A stretch of DNA of 64,000 nucleotides from Bacillota bacterium (lineage in GTDB: Bacteria > Bacillota > Sulfobacillia > Sulfobacillales > Sulfobacillaceae): the NCBI GenBank assembly GCA_023511625.1, contig JAIMBD010000001.1, positions 1 through 64,000 on the forward strand, given 5' to 3'. How positions within the stretch are numbered: position 1 is the stretch's first letter; the number at the start of each line of letters is the position of its first letter. Position numbers and translations under genes: made by a program. Below are positions 45,323 to 56,349 of the stretch, piece after piece. The notes below the pieces were generated by a model, which was not told the DNA's origin, did not search any database, and saw only the letters and a list, made by a program, of their open reading frames with translations.

Positions 45323-46705
45323 TCAGGAAATGCGGCTGCCGGTCAAGCTCGGGCCGGCATCGGGGCTCTCCAGCCCTTCCTCGGTCCATTCCAGCGAGCG
45401 CTGGCGCATCTCTGGCAGCCACAGCAGGGTCAAAAGCGCCCCCAAAAGGGAGACGCCTGCCAGAAGGCCCATGGTCGGCCCTAGCCCGGTGGCCTTGAGC
45501 ACCAAGGGCAGGAAGAACGCCCCCACGAAAGCCCCGACTTTGCCGGCCGCGGCGGAGATCCCGTGGCCGGTCCCGCGCAGGTTGGTCGGGAAGACTTCCG
45601 CCGGCACCAAGAAGGTGGTGGTGTTGGGCCCAAATTCCACGAAGAAGTAACTGATGGCGTACAGCACCAAGAACGCCACCGGCACTGCTACCACCGCCGG
45701 CACGAGGAAGATGACGCCATAGGCGGCCATCATCACGAGAAATCCGGTGGCCTGGATGGTCTTCCGACCCAAGCGGTCCATGAGGCGAGCGGCCACAAAG
45801 TACCCCGGCAACGCCGCCACCAGGAACAACAGCGCCGTGACCAAAACGGTAGTGGTCAGCGCAGCTTTGGGCAGAAGCCAGTGCAGGATGAGCTGCGACG
45901 ATACCCCATTGCCGTAAAAGGCGACGTCGATCAAGAACCAGCTGCCGGCTGTGGCCACAAGCCGCCGGAGGAGCTTCGGCGTCCACAGGGACTGGCTGCG
46001 CGGGCGCCACGCCTCCTCGGCCACCGCTTGTCCGCCCAGGGTCTCCGCCACCACCTCGGCCGCGGCCTTGCTGTCGCCCTTGACGGCCAAGAGATAGCGC
46101 GGCGTCTCCGGCATCCGCCGGCGCAGGAAGATGACCGACGCCGCCGGCACTGCGCCCAGGCCCAGCATCAGCCGCCAGACCAAATCATGGGGCAACCCGC
46201 TCCACAACAGCGCCGCGGCCACCACGGGGCCGATCAACAGGCCGAGCCCCTGCATGGCGAACACCATGGTCACCAGGTAGCCGCGATTTTGGCGGTTGGC
46301 GAACTCACTGGTAATCACAGAGCTCGTGGGGTAGTCGCCGCCAACCCCGAGGCCTACCACTGCGCGGAAGGCCACGAGCCACCCAAAGGACGGGGCCAGG
46401 GCAGAGAGGATGGCGCCGACCGTGAGCACCAGCACCTCTAGGCCGTACATGCGGCGCCGGCCCAAACGGTCCATGAGCGGCCCAAAAATTAACGCCCCTA
46501 GCGCCGCCGACGCCAAGGACGTGCTGTTGAGCAGGGCCAATTGGGCCGTGGAGAGATGCCACAGGGGGGTGAGGATGGCCGTCACCGTACCAATGATGAA
46601 AAGATCGTACGCATCGGTGAAAAACCCCATCCCGGCCGTAAACACGGTCCGCCAGTGAAACTTTCCAACCCCCGCTTCGTCTAACGCCTGAAGCGCCGTG
46701 CTCAT
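45323..46705 (-). CDS. Phosphate:H+ symporter, PHS family (Pho84-like MFS)
   Basis: The 460-residue carrier has the PHS hallmarks AGMGFFTDAYDLFIIG in TM1, GVGGDYPTSSVITSEF in TM4 and EFGPNTTTFLVPAEVFPTNLRGTGHG in the second half. These mark the inorganic-phosphate:proton symporter group. The start at ATG 46705 follows GGGAAAGGGGCGACAGG. Its promoter region holds two TTAAC repeats 11 bp apart, suggesting control by PhoP. It is a paralogue of the gene at 53477-54850. Confidence 0.87.
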   Translation of the reverse strand: MSTALQALDEAGVGKFHWRTVFTAGMGFFTDAYDLFIIGTVTAILTPLWHLSTAQLALLNSTSLASAALGALIFGPLMDRLGRRRMYGLEVLVLTVGAILSALAPSFGWLVAFRAVVGLGVGGDYPTSSVITSEFANRQNRGYLVTMVFAMQGLGLLIGPVVAAALLWSGLPHDLVWRLMLGLGAVPAASVIFLRRRMPETPRYLLAVKGDSKAAAEVVAETLGGQAVAEEAWRPRSQSLWTPKLLRRLVATAGSWFLIDVAFYGNGVSSQLILHWLLPKAALTTTVLVTALLFLVAALPGYFVAARLMDRLGRKTIQATGFLVMMAAYGVIFLVPAVVAVPVAFLVLYAISYFFVEFGPNTTTFLVPAEVFPTNLRGTGHGISAAAGKVGAFVGAFFLPLVLKATGLGPTMGLLAGVSLLGALLTLLWLPEMRQRSLEWTEEGLESPDAGPSLTGSRIS

Positions 46706-46792
46706 CCTGTCGCCCCTTTCCCACGCTGTTGTCGCCGCGAACACGGACGGTGAATGGCGAGACTTCTGCTGTAGTCAGGGTACTTAGGCGGT

Positions 46793-46831
46793 ATTATGCC
46801 CCGATTAGGATCGCGTTAAGATTTGGTTAAG
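46793..46831 (-). promoter_or_regulatory. Putative Pho box and promoter of the first PHS gene
   Basis: On the minus strand CTTAACCAAAT-CTTAACGCGAT shows two CTTAAC units exactly 11 bp apart (46815-46831). They lie 16 bp upstream of a CATAAT -10 (46793-46798), so the boxes occupy the -35 region as in PhoP-activated promoters. The 46706-47032 interval is otherwise empty apart from the divergent promoter. Confidence 0.6.
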
Positions 46832-46872: not shown

Positions 46873-46881
46873 TGGTATAAT
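46873..46881 (+). promoter_or_regulatory. Extended -10 promoter of the VTT-domain gene
   Basis: TGG-TATAAT is an extended -10 with a perfect hexamer (46876-46881). No -35 is evident. It is divergent from the PHS gene. Confidence 0.55.
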
Positions 46882-47032
46882 AGCGATGCGCGCCCGACGC
46901 GCCGTCGATTGGCCATCCCCGCCCCAAGGCTTCGCGCTCAAGGGGTCTGGATGTTTTGGATAGGTGCCTCGGATAGCTGCTACGACCCCACCACCGGTAC
47001 CCTTCCCGGCCCAGGGAAAGGCGGGTGACGCC

Positions 47033-47773
47033 GTGAAGGATGTGAAGGAACCGATCGAGCCCGAAGTCGAACCGGTTGCCCTGGAGGATCGCCACCCGCG
47101 CCTTTGGGTGCGTATTCTCCTGTGGCTCGCCGTGGCTTTGGTCCTCACTGCGCTGATGTGGGGCATGAGTCACGTCGATACCCTCTCCGGTCCCTGGGGC
47201 TTGCGCCTGTTCCGCTGGAAGCAACACATCGTGGCCTTAGGCTGGCGGGGGCCCCTGGTCTTGATGGCCCTGCTCTGCCTGCACAGCATCCTCTTGTTCC
47301 TCCCGGTGGAACTGCCCATGCTCATCGCCTTCGGCGTCTACGGACCGGTGCGCGGAGCGCTGTACAGCTGGATCGGCTCTTTGGCGGCGGCCATCGCCGC
47401 CTACTGGCTGGCCCGCGGCTTAGGCCGTCCGCTCGTAGGCCGCTGGGTCCCTCCAGAAACCCTGGCCAAATTGGACCAGGGCATCCGCACCTTCGGCGAC
47501 ACGGGGCTTCTGCTTTTGCGATTTATCCCAGTGGTCTCCTTCACGGCCCTCAATTACGCAGCCGGGCTGGCCGGCGTTAACTGGTGGAGTTTCGCCTGGA
47601 CGTCGGCCTTAGGCATTCTCGCCAGCGACAGCCTCATAGGGCTCTTGTACGCCGGCGCGCTCAACGCGGTGTGGACCACGGCGGTAGGAGTCGCAGCCCT
47701 CACCGTGGCCTCTGCCTGGACCCTGTGGCGGCTCGAGCGCCGTCCCCGCCGCGATCTCAATCGCCCCTTGTAA
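47033..47773 (+). CDS. VTT-domain membrane protein (TVP38/TMEM64, DedA-like)
   Basis: The 246-residue protein has a charged N-terminus, then about six hydrophobic segments. It includes FLPVELPMLIAFGVYGPVRG and the SNARE-associated/VTT signature LLLLRFIPVVSFTALNYAAGL. Family members act as lipid scramblases or support membrane energetics. GTG 47033 is used as start, after AAAGGCGGGTGACG. It is divergent from the phosphate symporter. Confidence 0.8.
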   Translation: MKDVKEPIEPEVEPVALEDRHPRLWVRILLWLAVALVLTALMWGMSHVDTLSGPWGLRLFRWKQHIVALGWRGPLVLMALLCLHSILLFLPVELPMLIAFGVYGPVRGALYSWIGSLAAAIAAYWLARGLGRPLVGRWVPPETLAKLDQGIRTFGDTGLLLLRFIPVVSFTALNYAAGLAGVNWWSFAWTSALGILASDSLIGLLYAGALNAVWTTAVGVAALTVASAWTLWRLERRPRRDLNRPL

Positions 47774-49935: not shown

Positions 49936-51015
49936 ATGTCCATGCTCCACAGCACCGAGACCGCGCCCCGGCCTGCCACCAGTCAGGCATGGCGGGTGGT
50001 GGTGTTTCTCGCCATTTTTGTGCTCGGGGTCTTCTACGTCAAGTGGGACCCCTATTTCCACAAGGCCTTTGTAGCGGCGGCCCATCATACGCTGGGCGCG
50101 TCCATCGTCTCTGGCAAAAGTAATGCGCCGCCGGCACCATCGTGGCAGGCGGCCGTATCGTACGCGCTCAGCTACGGCGCCGCCATCTGGCAGGCGCTGG
50201 TGGTGGGCCTGTTGGTGGGGGCTGGGATCCAGACCCTGGTGCCCCGCGACTGGTTGGTTCGCGTCCTCGGCGGGGCGAGTTACCGCGGTCCCTTGACGGC
50301 CGGCCTGGCCGCCGTGCCCGCCATGATGTGCACCTGCTGCTCGGCCCCTTTGGCCGTGGGCTTAGCCCGCAGCCGCGCTTCGGTGGCTTCGACGCTGGCC
50401 TTCTGGCTCGGTAACCCGGTCCTCAATCCGGCGACCATCGTCTTCATCGGGTTCGTCTTGGGTTGGAAATGGGCTTTCCTGCGCATCGTGGTGGGCGCGA
50501 TCTTGGTCTTTGGCATCGCGCCGTGGATCGGGCGCTGGCTTGCCCCCGACGACCTTCCCGGCGCAGCCGAGGAAGCGGTCGCGGCAGCCGCGCGCCCCGC
50601 TGGCCAACAGTCGGTCGTCTCCCAGTACTTTGCCGCCCTGTGGCAACTGGCCAAGGGGCTCCTGCCGGAGTACGTGGTGATCCTGCTGGTGTTGGGTGCC
50701 GTTCGGGCCTGGCTGTTTCCCGCCATCAACCCGTCCGTTGGACACAGCATCGGGCTGATGCTGTTCCTGGCTGCCGCCGGCACACTCTTCGTCATCCCCA
50801 CCGCCGGTGAGGTGCCCATCATTCAAACCCTGTCCCGGTTTGGGCTTGGAGCCGGTCCCGCCGGGGTCTTGCTCCTGACACTGCCCGCCGTGAGCTTGCC
50901 CTCGCTGGCCATGGTCGGCCGCGCGCTGCCGGCCCGCGTACTCGTGGCCCTGGCCGTCGCCGTGGCGCTCCTCGGCCTTCTCACCGGGTTTGCGGCCATG
51001 GCGCTCGGTTTCTAA
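49936..51015 (+). CDS. ArsP/DUF318-family membrane permease
   Basis: The 359-residue protein has about nine membrane segments and the CTCCSAP motif (in AVPAMMCTCCSAPLAVGL), plus the duplicated FWLGNPVLNPATIVF / AGEVPIIQTL pattern of permease family PF03773. Members include ArsP, which exports trivalent organoarsenicals, and uncharacterised metal permeases. The ATG at 49936 follows GAGAGGAGGATGTCC; an upstream dyad could bind an ArsR-type repressor. ArsB is encoded 5 kb away. Confidence 0.82.
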   Translation: MSMLHSTETAPRPATSQAWRVVVFLAIFVLGVFYVKWDPYFHKAFVAAAHHTLGASIVSGKSNAPPAPSWQAAVSYALSYGAAIWQALVVGLLVGAGIQTLVPRDWLVRVLGGASYRGPLTAGLAAVPAMMCTCCSAPLAVGLARSRASVASTLAFWLGNPVLNPATIVFIGFVLGWKWAFLRIVVGAILVFGIAPWIGRWLAPDDLPGAAEEAVAAAARPAGQQSVVSQYFAALWQLAKGLLPEYVVILLVLGAVRAWLFPAINPSVGHSIGLMLFLAAAGTLFVIPTAGEVPIIQTLSRFGLGAGPAGVLLLTLPAVSLPSLAMVGRALPARVLVALAVAVALLGLLTGFAAMALGF

Positions 51016-53476: not shown

Positions 53477-54850
53477 TCAAGCCCCGACGCGCTCGATGCG
53501 CCGCAGTGCCGCCTCCTCGCCCGCCACCTCCTCCAACGCACGCCCGGCCGGCTCGGGAAGGATGCCGGTGAGTAGGGCCCCGGCCGCCGCCGCGCCCGCG
53601 CACACCGCGAGGTTCGCAGCCAAGTCGAGGTGCGCCGCTAAGATGGGAAAGAGGAAGACCCCGAGAAAGGCGCCGAGCTTCGCGACGCCGGCAGAGAGCC
53701 CGTGCCCGGTGGCGCGCAGGTTGACCGGAAAGACCTCCGCGGCCAAGACGAACGTCGTGGTGTTGGGCCCGAACTCGGCAAAGAAGTAGCTCAACCCGTA
53801 CAAGGTCAAGAAGGGGGCGGCGGCGGTCGTCAAGCCCGGCACGGCGGCCAAGACGGCGAAGGCCAGAGCCATGGCCACGAACCCCCACCGCTGTAACCGC
53901 CGGTGGCCGACGCGGTCCATGGTGGAGAACGCCAGCACATATCCCGGCAGAGCCGCGCCGGCAAACAGGGCCAGGGTCCACCAGGTCTCGGTGATCAGCG
54001 AGGCATGGGGGGCCACCCAGCGCAAGATGACAGGCGTGGCGATGGTGTTGCCATAATAGGCGTAATCGAACAGGAACCAACAGCCCGCAGTACCCACCAG
54101 CACGCGCAGGTAATCCCGAAGGCGCCGCTCGACGCGCAATCCCTCCCCACCCACCACCCTCAAGACTCCGCCGGATACCCGCTCGACGGCTTGGGCGGCA
54201 GCCTCCACGTCACCGCGGACGCGGGCCACAAACCGCGGCGATTCTGGCAGCTGGCGCCGGAGCCCGATGACGGCCAGCGCCGGCACAGCCCCGAGCCCCA
54301 GCATCACCCGCCAGGCGAAGTCCGTCGGCACCCCTGCCCCAAAGAGGGCCAAGGCCACCAAGGGCCCAACAACCAACCCGGCGGCTTGCATGGCGAAGAC
54401 CATGCCCACCAGGCGTCCGCGGTCCCGAGCATTGGCGTACTCGCTCATGATCACCGCCGAAACGGGGTAGTCGCCCCCCACGCCCAGTCCTAACAGCAGG
54501 CGGAAAGCCAACAGCCACCAAAAATTGGGCGCACAAGCCGTAGCCAATGCCGCCCCGGCCATGATGGCGGCCTCCACCCCGTAGATGCGCTTGCGCCCCC
54601 ACCGGTCCGCGAGGCGGCCGAACCCTACGGCCCCGGCGAAGGAGGCCAGCAGCGTCGCCGACCCCAAGAGGCCCACCTGCCAATCGCCGAGGTGCCAGGC
54701 CGGGCGGATCAACACCAGCGCCATCCCAATGATGAAAAGGTCGTAGGCGTCGGTGAAAAATCCCATCCCTGCGGTCACCAACGCGCGGTAATGAAATCGC
54801 GAAAGGGGCGCGCGGTTCAATACCTCGTGGACTGAATACCCGTGGTCCAT
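53477..54850 (-). CDS. Phosphate:H+ symporter, PHS family (Pho84-like MFS), second copy
   Basis: The 457-residue carrier shares the PHS signatures with the copy at 45323-46705: AGMGFFTDAYDLFIIG, GVGGDYPVSAVIMSEY and EFGPNTTTFVLAAEVFPVNLRATGHG. The two differ elsewhere, so the duplication is old. The ATG at 54850 follows GGCGAGGAGGCGGAG. Four 11-bp repeats of TTAACC type upstream suggest phosphate-starvation control. Adjacency to arsB may reflect arsenate entry through phosphate carriers. Confidence 0.87.
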   Translation of the reverse strand: MDHGYSVHEVLNRAPLSRFHYRALVTAGMGFFTDAYDLFIIGMALVLIRPAWHLGDWQVGLLGSATLLASFAGAVGFGRLADRWGRKRIYGVEAAIMAGAALATACAPNFWWLLAFRLLLGLGVGGDYPVSAVIMSEYANARDRGRLVGMVFAMQAAGLVVGPLVALALFGAGVPTDFAWRVMLGLGAVPALAVIGLRRQLPESPRFVARVRGDVEAAAQAVERVSGGVLRVVGGEGLRVERRLRDYLRVLVGTAGCWFLFDYAYYGNTIATPVILRWVAPHASLITETWWTLALFAGAALPGYVLAFSTMDRVGHRRLQRWGFVAMALAFAVLAAVPGLTTAAAPFLTLYGLSYFFAEFGPNTTTFVLAAEVFPVNLRATGHGLSAGVAKLGAFLGVFLFPILAAHLDLAANLAVCAGAAAAGALLTGILPEPAGRALEEVAGEEAALRRIERVGA

Positions 54851-54935
54851 GGCTCCGCCTCCTCGCCGGGGTCGGTGCGGCTTGGCCTGCCCCTTGACAG
54901 GGCCCCGATCCCCCGACTTCACGGTAACGCCATCG

Positions 54936-54974
54936 GGTTAATCTTTGGTTAAGCTGAGATTGTCCTTTGGTTAA
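54936..54974 (-). promoter_or_regulatory. Putative Pho box array of the second PHS gene
   Basis: Read on the plus strand, GGTTAA occurs at 54936, 54947 and 54969, with a degenerate GATTGT at 54958. This gives four units in strict 11-bp register. On the coding strand these are TTAACC repeats, close to the B. subtilis PhoP box TTAACA. The array begins 10 bp after the arsB stop. Confidence 0.62.
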
Positions 54975-54983
54975 GCCGAGCCG

Positions 54984-56297
54984 TTACTTGGCGCCCAGGG
55001 TAGGCTGGAGCAGTGTCCACCAGCCCGCGAGGGCCAAGAGGGTGACGGCCAATACCGGTGGGGTCAGGATTAGGCCCACCCGAACCAACTCGCCCCAGCG
55101 CACGCGAAGCCCGCGACGCTCGACCAGGTGCATCCACAAGAGCGTTGCCAGCGACCCGATGGGGGTCCACTTCGTGCCCACGTCGGTGCCCACCACGTTG
55201 GCGTACGCCATGGCCTCTTGCATCCCGGGGGGCGCTCCCGAGGCGTGGATGGCCAGCGCCCCCACCATCACGGCCGGAAGGTTGTTCATGACGGCAGCCA
55301 ACCCCGCCGTCACGCCTCCCGTGCCCACGACTGCCGCCCAGGGACCCTCGGCCGCCAACGCTCCGAACCCCCGCGCCAAACCTGCGATGAGCCCGGCGTC
55401 GCGCAGGGCAAAGACCACCACATACATGCCGATGGAGAAGACCACGATGCGCCAGGGCGCCTCGCGCACCACCTGTCTCAACGACACCGCCGAGCTCCTG
55501 CGCGCCCAAGCGGCCATGGCCACCGCCGCGCTTGCGGCAAAGATGGACACCGGCCAATGCAGCCACTGGCTGGCTGTGTAGCCCGCCAGCAGGCACGCGA
55601 GCACCACCCCGCCGGCTCGCACCAGCACCGGATCGCGGACGGCCGAGCGGGGAGACGGCAGCGACGACACCGCAGCCACCCACTGCAGATCCCGGCGGTA
55701 ATACGCCCACAACAGGAACATGGCGGCGGCAAAGGCCACGAGGTCGACCGGCACCATCACCGCCGCGTAGGCCAAAAAGCCCAGATGAAAAAAGTCGGCC
55801 GAGATGATGTTGACGAGGTTTGACACCACCAGCGGCACCGAGGTGACATCGGCCACAAAGCCGCAGGTCACGGCCAGCGCCAGCGCCGCAGACCGCGAAA
55901 GCCCCAGGGCCCGCGCCTGCTGCAGCACCAAGGGGGTGACGATGAGCGCCGCGCCGTCGTTGGCAAAAGCCATCGCCGCCAGCGCCGTGAGCACGCCCAC
56001 GCCCCAAAACACCGCCCACCCGCGCCCTCCGCTGAGGCGGGCCATGGTCAGGGCCGCCCAGGCAAACAGACCCGCCTCGTCCAAGATGGCCGAGAGGATC
56101 AAAAGGGCGACGAGGGTCGCCGTGGCGTCCCAGACCAGCTGGACCACCTCACCCACCTCGCGCCAGGTGACGAGGCCGAGCGCCACCGCCGCCGCCCCCC
56201 CAAGGCCAGCCGTCCACCCGATGCCGATCCGCCGCGGCTGCCACAACACCAACCCGAGAACGGCGACGAAGAGTCCCAGGGCCTCGATTCCGGCCAT
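54984..56297 (-). CDS. arsB: Arsenite efflux permease ArsB
   Basis: The 437-residue protein has about eleven membrane segments and the ArsB signatures AFANDGAALIVTPLV, VPLVVSNLVNIISADFF, VMNNLPAVMVGALAI and TDVGTKWTPIGSLATLLWMHLV. It exports arsenite or antimonite. The ATG at 56297 follows CAGGGGGTGG. It is 52 bp downstream of a flavoprotein gene, probably in one transcript. No arsC or arsR is in the window. Confidence 0.9.
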   Translation of the reverse strand: MAGIEALGLFVAVLGLVLWQPRRIGIGWTAGLGGAAAVALGLVTWREVGEVVQLVWDATATLVALLILSAILDEAGLFAWAALTMARLSGGRGWAVFWGVGVLTALAAMAFANDGAALIVTPLVLQQARALGLSRSAALALAVTCGFVADVTSVPLVVSNLVNIISADFFHLGFLAYAAVMVPVDLVAFAAAMFLLWAYYRRDLQWVAAVSSLPSPRSAVRDPVLVRAGGVVLACLLAGYTASQWLHWPVSIFAASAAVAMAAWARRSSAVSLRQVVREAPWRIVVFSIGMYVVVFALRDAGLIAGLARGFGALAAEGPWAAVVGTGGVTAGLAAVMNNLPAVMVGALAIHASGAPPGMQEAMAYANVVGTDVGTKWTPIGSLATLLWMHLVERRGLRVRWGELVRVGLILTPPVLAVTLLALAGWWTLLQPTLGAK

Positions 56298-56349
56298 CGT
56301 CCACCCCCTGCTCCCCACTCCATCAGGCCATGGGCCGGCAGGGACCGCG

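Follow-up and report, generated by a model that had tools for sequence, protein, structure and literature searches.

The gene for a PHS-type MFS symporter (PHS1; 45323..46744, minus strand, longest ORF, with a likely start by eye at the ATG at 46705) is preceded by TTAAC words spaced 11 bp apart, which raises the question of whether the words belong to an ordinary promoter or form a Pho box array on which a response regulator acts. The gene lies in a 64,000-nt stretch of DNA (the window, C3:1-64000) from a Sulfobacillus-like bacterium whose genome comprises 2,585,636 bases in 40 contigs and which, judging from its kinship and named relatives, would be an acidophile.

Repeat arrays upstream of two PHS-type genes

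On the minus strand, positions 46793-46831 read CTTAACCAAATCTTAACGCGATCCTAATCGGGGCATAAT and contain the 11-bp-spaced TTAAC repeats of the original prediction, namely two perfect words followed in register by CTAATC, a degraded third copy. The full array, assigned from its sequence, its location by script, an in-phase hexamer and the same layout in a congener (L154), extends from 46830 to 46777 on the minus strand as TTAACC-AAATC-TTAACG-CGATC-CTAATC-GGGGC-ATAATA-CCGCCTAAG-TACCCT. It has four units, TTAACC (46830-46825), TTAACG (46819-46814), CTAATC (46808-46803) and ATAATA (46797-46792), all on the minus strand, and nine nucleotides separate unit 4 from TACCCT. The intergenic region is common to this array and a divergent gene for a VTT-domain membrane protein (46964..47773, plus strand, PF09335), for which there is an extended -10, TGGTATAAT, at 46873-46881 on the plus strand; by eye, this word is present in the congener too.

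When the window was scanned for TTAAC-N6-TTAAC with up to one mismatch, two matches were found against an expectation of 0.30 (two were reached in 4 of 100 shuffles). Both are perfect and they lie upstream of the two PHS genes, the second at 54937-54952 before PHS2 (53477..54922, minus strand, longest ORF). The PHS2 array, TTAACC-AAAGG-ACAATC-TCAGC-TTAACC-AAAGA-TTAACC-CGATGGCGT-TACCGT (54974-54921, minus strand), has the units TTAACC, ACAATC, TTAACC and TTAACC and a -10 hexamer, TACCGT, at 54926-54921. Because the first GTG of the longest PHS2 ORF falls within this -10, the true start is probably further down, at an ATG near 54850 by eye. Two genes with a connection to arsenic are found close by: an ArsP_1 permease gene (49936-51015, plus strand) near the PHS genes, and a gene for an ArsB arsenite efflux protein (54984-56318, minus strand; 508 bits versus a cut-off of 457) whose end adjoins the upstream side of the PHS2 array. 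Arsenate is a phosphate analogue.

Arrays across the genome

The exact TTAAC-N6-TTAAC dimer occurs three times in the whole genome, two of them in the window, and not at all in a reversed control; allowing one mismatch brought no genome-wide excess (18 matches versus 25 in the control). A search for three successive TTMACC-N5 units, in which up to three mismatches were allowed, gave 13 overlapping matches versus 6 in the control, and these represent seven distinct sites, six of which have a phosphate-linked gene downstream. Two are the window arrays before PHS1 and PHS2. The others are located at C3:213009, before PstB (288.4 bits, cut-off 343.2), PstS (326.2 bits, cut-off 205) and a permease; at C3:256543-256603 (five units), before a Trans_reg_C ORF and then a third PHS-type gene (PHS3); at C3:322998, before four ORFs that have UgpC, UgpB, UgpA and UgpE as their top NCBIfam models, each scoring under its cut-off; at C7:56294 on the minus strand, before uppP/BacA; and at C7:56361 on the plus strand, with no convincing phosphate gene downstream. 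An eighth array (C7:59892), before a PF04185 phosphoesterase gene, came from the one-mismatch dimer search, and a weaker five-unit array precedes surE. Three of the ten arrays tested for hexamer phase (C7:56361, C5:61878 and near C3:252354) are not followed by a clear phosphate gene. The expectation that a genome scan would place the repeats near phosphate genes was therefore borne out for pst, ugp-type, PHS1-3, uppP and phosphoesterase genes, but not for the phoP-phoR-pst-phoU cluster on contig C34 (L191), where no array was detected (best score 8.6, compared with 13-33 for the ten arrays). An array at the phoPR operon, indicative of autoregulation, is a common Pho box trait and not a defining one.

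The arrays hold four or five units each with a period of 11 nt. The units take two main forms, TTAACC, which is the commoner, and TTCACC, and position 2 is T in 34 of 37 units and G in 0 of 37. The arrays hence combine the features of a PhoP/PhoB-type Pho box, namely 11-nt tandem direct repeats, at least two units near a -10, and several phosphate-acquisition genes as targets.

Several further sites were recorded. The exact TTAAC dimer at C5:61862-61893 (minus strand) has TAAGCT in phase and no clear downstream gene in the ORF list, and possibly precedes a small RNA or a small ORF. A two-unit repeat at C17:45861-45876 (minus strand), with TACACT in phase, lies before the gene for an HtrA-like protease. 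The Trans_reg_C protein encoded between the five-unit array and PHS3 (C3:256682-257377, plus strand) is atypical, with no receiver domain in Pfam. A dimer-plus-hexamer pattern with up to two mismatches gave 11 matches versus 3 in the control; several of these were fragments of arrays already known, their hexamer being mismatched, and the search added nothing.

Fixed spacing to a -10-like hexamer

At all seven three-unit sites a TAnnnT hexamer is found exactly 15 bp after the start of an in-register unit (TACCCT, TACCGT, TATGAT, TACGGT, TAGGAT, TACCGT and TAGACT). The phase is kept in 10 of 10 arrays after adding three sites by eye (C7:59892, C5:61878 and near C3:252354) and in 10 of 11 when the weak surE array (TGTACT) is counted; in 8 of the 10, no TAnnnT other than the in-phase hexamer occurs at offsets 26-80. 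In the DNA examined from this genome the frequency of TANNNT is 0.0020, which gives a chance of 1e-14 for seven of seven in phase, or 1e-6 if the background is set deliberately high, at 0.03, both values being optimistic since the rule was taken from the very sites scored. The 15-bp rule derived here was afterwards satisfied in other genomes (below).

This spacing bears on the promoter of PHS1, for which CATAAT had originally been proposed as the -10. The array register would make CATAAT (46793..46798, minus strand) an overlap with unit 4, and because the TAnnnT phase is fixed at all seven sites, the -10 is probably not CATAAT but TACCCT (46777..46782, minus strand; offset 48, or 15+33, from the array start), which fits the layout of the other arrays. 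TACCCT is the sole TANNNT at offsets 26-80 downstream of the array start both here and in the congener, where it is identical while three of the nine bases between it and the array differ. CATAAT is also kept in the congener. The result is a simple rule for promoter prediction, in which a unit recurs every 11 bp and the -10 lies fifteen bp past the last unit.

Conservation in other genomes

Eight arrays were found in the congener (G001), before PHS1, pstB-pstS-permeases, a UgpC-like gene, uppP, a PF04185 phosphoesterase gene, surE, EAL-PHS-GGDEF genes and a small membrane ORF. An in-phase TAnnnT accompanies six of them, and TTTACT and TTGACT occupy that offset in the remaining two. Six arrays (PHS1, pst, ugp, uppP, phosphoesterase and small ORF) can be recognized clearly in both genomes and a seventh, that of surE, is weaker; the small ORF of the congener is related to the ORF behind the array near C3:252354 (42% over 89 residues, E 3e-06).

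A wider sample was drawn from the best 80 of 569 PHS loci in the records of other genomes, some genomes contributing more than one, of which 67 (including the congener) were kept after removal of near-copies and of loci with <200 bp upstream. Using the unit matrix from our genome, the best three-unit array per locus was sought on both strands and counted if it lay no more than 350 bp upstream of the PHS gene. At period 11 this was the case for 41 of the 67 loci, compared with 1.4 expected and with 2-7 of 67 at the eleven other periods in the range 6-17; in the remaining 26 loci the best array is located elsewhere. The two-unit version gave 34 of 67 at period 11 versus 3-13 at other periods. 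The 39 loci scoring above 12 contain 36 TAnnnT in the counted range; 15 are in phase, compared with about 3.3 for an even spread. Clear arrays occur in records from Bacillota and Actinomycetes, most Alicyclobacillus loci are low-scoring, and PHS loci from Gammaproteobacteria and other Proteobacteria have some of the lowest scores.

The three-unit search of 46 genomes, including our own, gave 67 matches versus 26 in the reversed sequences, and by this control count a good part of the matches is chance. Downstream of the 29 loci outside our genome there are five MFS/PHS-like genes (two of them only 38% identical to PHS1), two SurE, one UppP, one UgpC-like ATPase (L170; 416 bits versus a cut-off of 432, for a longer ORF with its frame opening upstream of the match, used in place of the ORF given by the script), two solute-binding proteins, one HtrA-like protease, one pyridine-nucleotide oxidoreductase and six ORFs with no Pfam match, while ten have no ORF of at least 100 residues starting within 450 bp. 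The same array layout, with TACCGT, precedes a uppP gene of another family (G035). In genome G017 a three-unit match (L180) lies before an HtrA-like gene. A relative (G005) has a strong array in reverse orientation (L194:7159-7186, plus strand) about 25 bp upstream of a Pit/CysP-type gene that scores best with CysP (38 bits) and PitA (22 bits), neither score coming close to its cut-off. The arrays before several phosphate genes in our genome and the congener, and at the PHS loci of other genomes, agree with the PhoP-type promoter layout that had been predicted.

The candidate regulator and its probable mode of action

We consider it very probable that the repeats form a Pho box array that is bound by a PhoP/PhoB-type regulator and drives the PHS symporters under phosphate limitation. 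The identity of the regulator, activation as opposed to repression, and phosphate as the signal are what we infer from these data. Contig C34 encodes, all in the same orientation, a PhoB/YycF-type response regulator, a PnpS/PhoR-type kinase, PstS-like and PstC/A-like proteins, PstB and PhoU. The first two make up a cognate sensor-regulator pair, both just below the NCBIfam cut-offs (268.1 bits for the regulator with TIGR02154, cut-off 296.2; 387.8 for the kinase with NF046044, cut-off 400, and 328 with TIGR02966, cut-off 334.2). The best NCBIfam model for the regulator is YycF and its top solved relatives are RegX3 and MtrA. Under phosphate limitation, a sensor kinase would phosphorylate a PhoP/PhoB-type regulator, most likely that of C34; the phosphorylated regulator would then fill the four tandem 11-bp units, head to tail, next to the -10, and the filled array would recruit RNA polymerase for transcription of the PHS symporter genes.

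The C34 regulator appears to be the best candidate for binding the arrays, although it is not the only one and the binder is not settled, because the genome has eight Trans_reg_C matches, five of them strong, and YycF is the candidate's own best model. Use of the array by another OmpR-family regulator, either one similar to WalR/YycF or the atypical protein beside PHS3, is improbable but deserves consideration since 11-bp direct repeats are used by other members of this family as well and the gene of the atypical protein is directly behind an array. However, the WalR/YycF box consists of a TGT-type word in 11-bp direct repeats, which the TTMACC units do not resemble given their T, and never G, at position 2. 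The targets are also mostly phosphate-linked, the atypical protein lacks a Pfam receiver domain, and in the congener the array behind the PHS-GAF-GGDEF fusion described below is followed by pst and not by this gene. It is very unlikely that the array is instead a repressor site through which a regulator turns the PHS genes off. Some genes are repressed by Pho regulators, and the reversed array of G005 might be a mark of repression, but the same orientation and hexamer distance are seen in the arrays of pst, ugp-type and phosphoesterase genes, whose expression usually rises when phosphate is limiting. Least credible of all is an ordinary sigma-70 type promoter with CATAAT as its -10, in which the repeats are a coincidence of A+T-rich promoter DNA. 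CATAAT is a fair and conserved -10 and DNA upstream of PHS genes somewhat exceeds expectation at every period, but only period 11 stands out, the hexamer phase is the same at every three-unit site and TACCCT is invariant in the congener despite the changes flanking it.

PHS proteins and phosphate uptake

The original prediction named the downstream gene as a PHS phosphate symporter. TIGR00887 is the top-scoring NCBIfam model for both PHS1 (E 4e-95, 319.6 bits, with a PF00083 match) and PHS2 (E 2.7e-82, 277.3 bits); both scores are below the cut-off of 610.3, and phosphate is therefore a putative substrate. A role in phosphate uptake is plausible given that no match to PF01384 (Pit family) was found in our genome, which is 97% complete, compared with matches in 10 of 14 control genomes. 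The arrays provide evidence, independent of protein similarity, for a phosphate role of bacterial PHS-type MFS transporters. To our knowledge, no PHS symporter is among the classical PhoB targets of Escherichia coli.

A possible connection to c-di-GMP

A single ORF in both our genome (C3:254229-256601, plus strand) and the congener (L153:6273-8636, plus strand) encodes a PHS-type MFS transporter fused to GAF and GGDEF domains. In each case the GGDEF motif is intact and an EAL gene lies directly upstream; in the congener this tandem is behind a five-unit array. A second EAL gene (C7, L132:2373-3221, minus strand) lies downstream of uppP in the same direction, and uppP has its own Pho array. As a lead, the fusion of PHS to a diguanylate cyclase domain is more surprising than the Pho regulon, and a literature search for GGDEF-MFS fusions gave no on-topic paper as judged by title. 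It is conceivable, if rather doubtful, that the Pho arrays wire phosphate to c-di-GMP and that the fusion acts as a transceptor, signalling phosphate flux through c-di-GMP. A tie between phosphate limitation and c-di-GMP turnover is known from Pseudomonas fluorescens, where RapA is a low-phosphate c-di-GMP phosphodiesterase (PMC3032545); in our genome, unlike RapA, the EAL genes are found behind uppP and directly before the fusion.

Comparison with known Pho systems

Taken together, the arrays allow the Pho regulon of this Sulfobacillus-like bacterium to be outlined from sequence. The regulon is conserved and ordinary, in a lineage that has received little study, and the Pho box switch is itself of a well known type. 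The PhoP box of Bacillus subtilis consists of TTAACA-type direct repeats near the promoter, and shares with our arrays the TTAAC core and the direct repeats; our arrays differ in their target set and in the constant 15-bp distance to the -10 that was measured here. Within the lineage, the Sulfobacillus thermotolerans genome paper (PMC6803676) names phoB-phoR-pst-phoU genes, and among the papers listed on Sulfobacillus, Alicyclobacillus and Pho no title or opening of an abstract refers to Pho boxes there. A connection of Pst/Pho to the UppP class of enzymes has been published before, for different genes and with the effect reversed: in an E. coli pst mutant the transcripts of ydhJ and yeiU/lpxT, termed undecaprenyl pyrophosphate phosphatases, are lowered (PMC2648988).

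Pho boxes in general are tandem 11-nt direct repeat units on which regulators of the PhoB/PhoP family bind head to tail, making contact with the sigma subunit (PMC4415409). The E. coli PhoB box (CTGTCAT; PMC4415409), with ugp and pst among its targets, is similar to our arrays in its tandem 11-nt units and different in its core word. The PhoP box of Streptomyces coelicolor (GTTCACC core) likewise comprises 11-nt direct repeats, with several core and weaker units in one operator, the Streptomyces pitH2 operator having four core units (PMC7866108). Its TTCACC core is found here too, as one of two main forms of the unit, whereas our genome favours TTAACC and directs these arrays to PHS-type MFS symporters in a Sulfobacillus-like bacterium.
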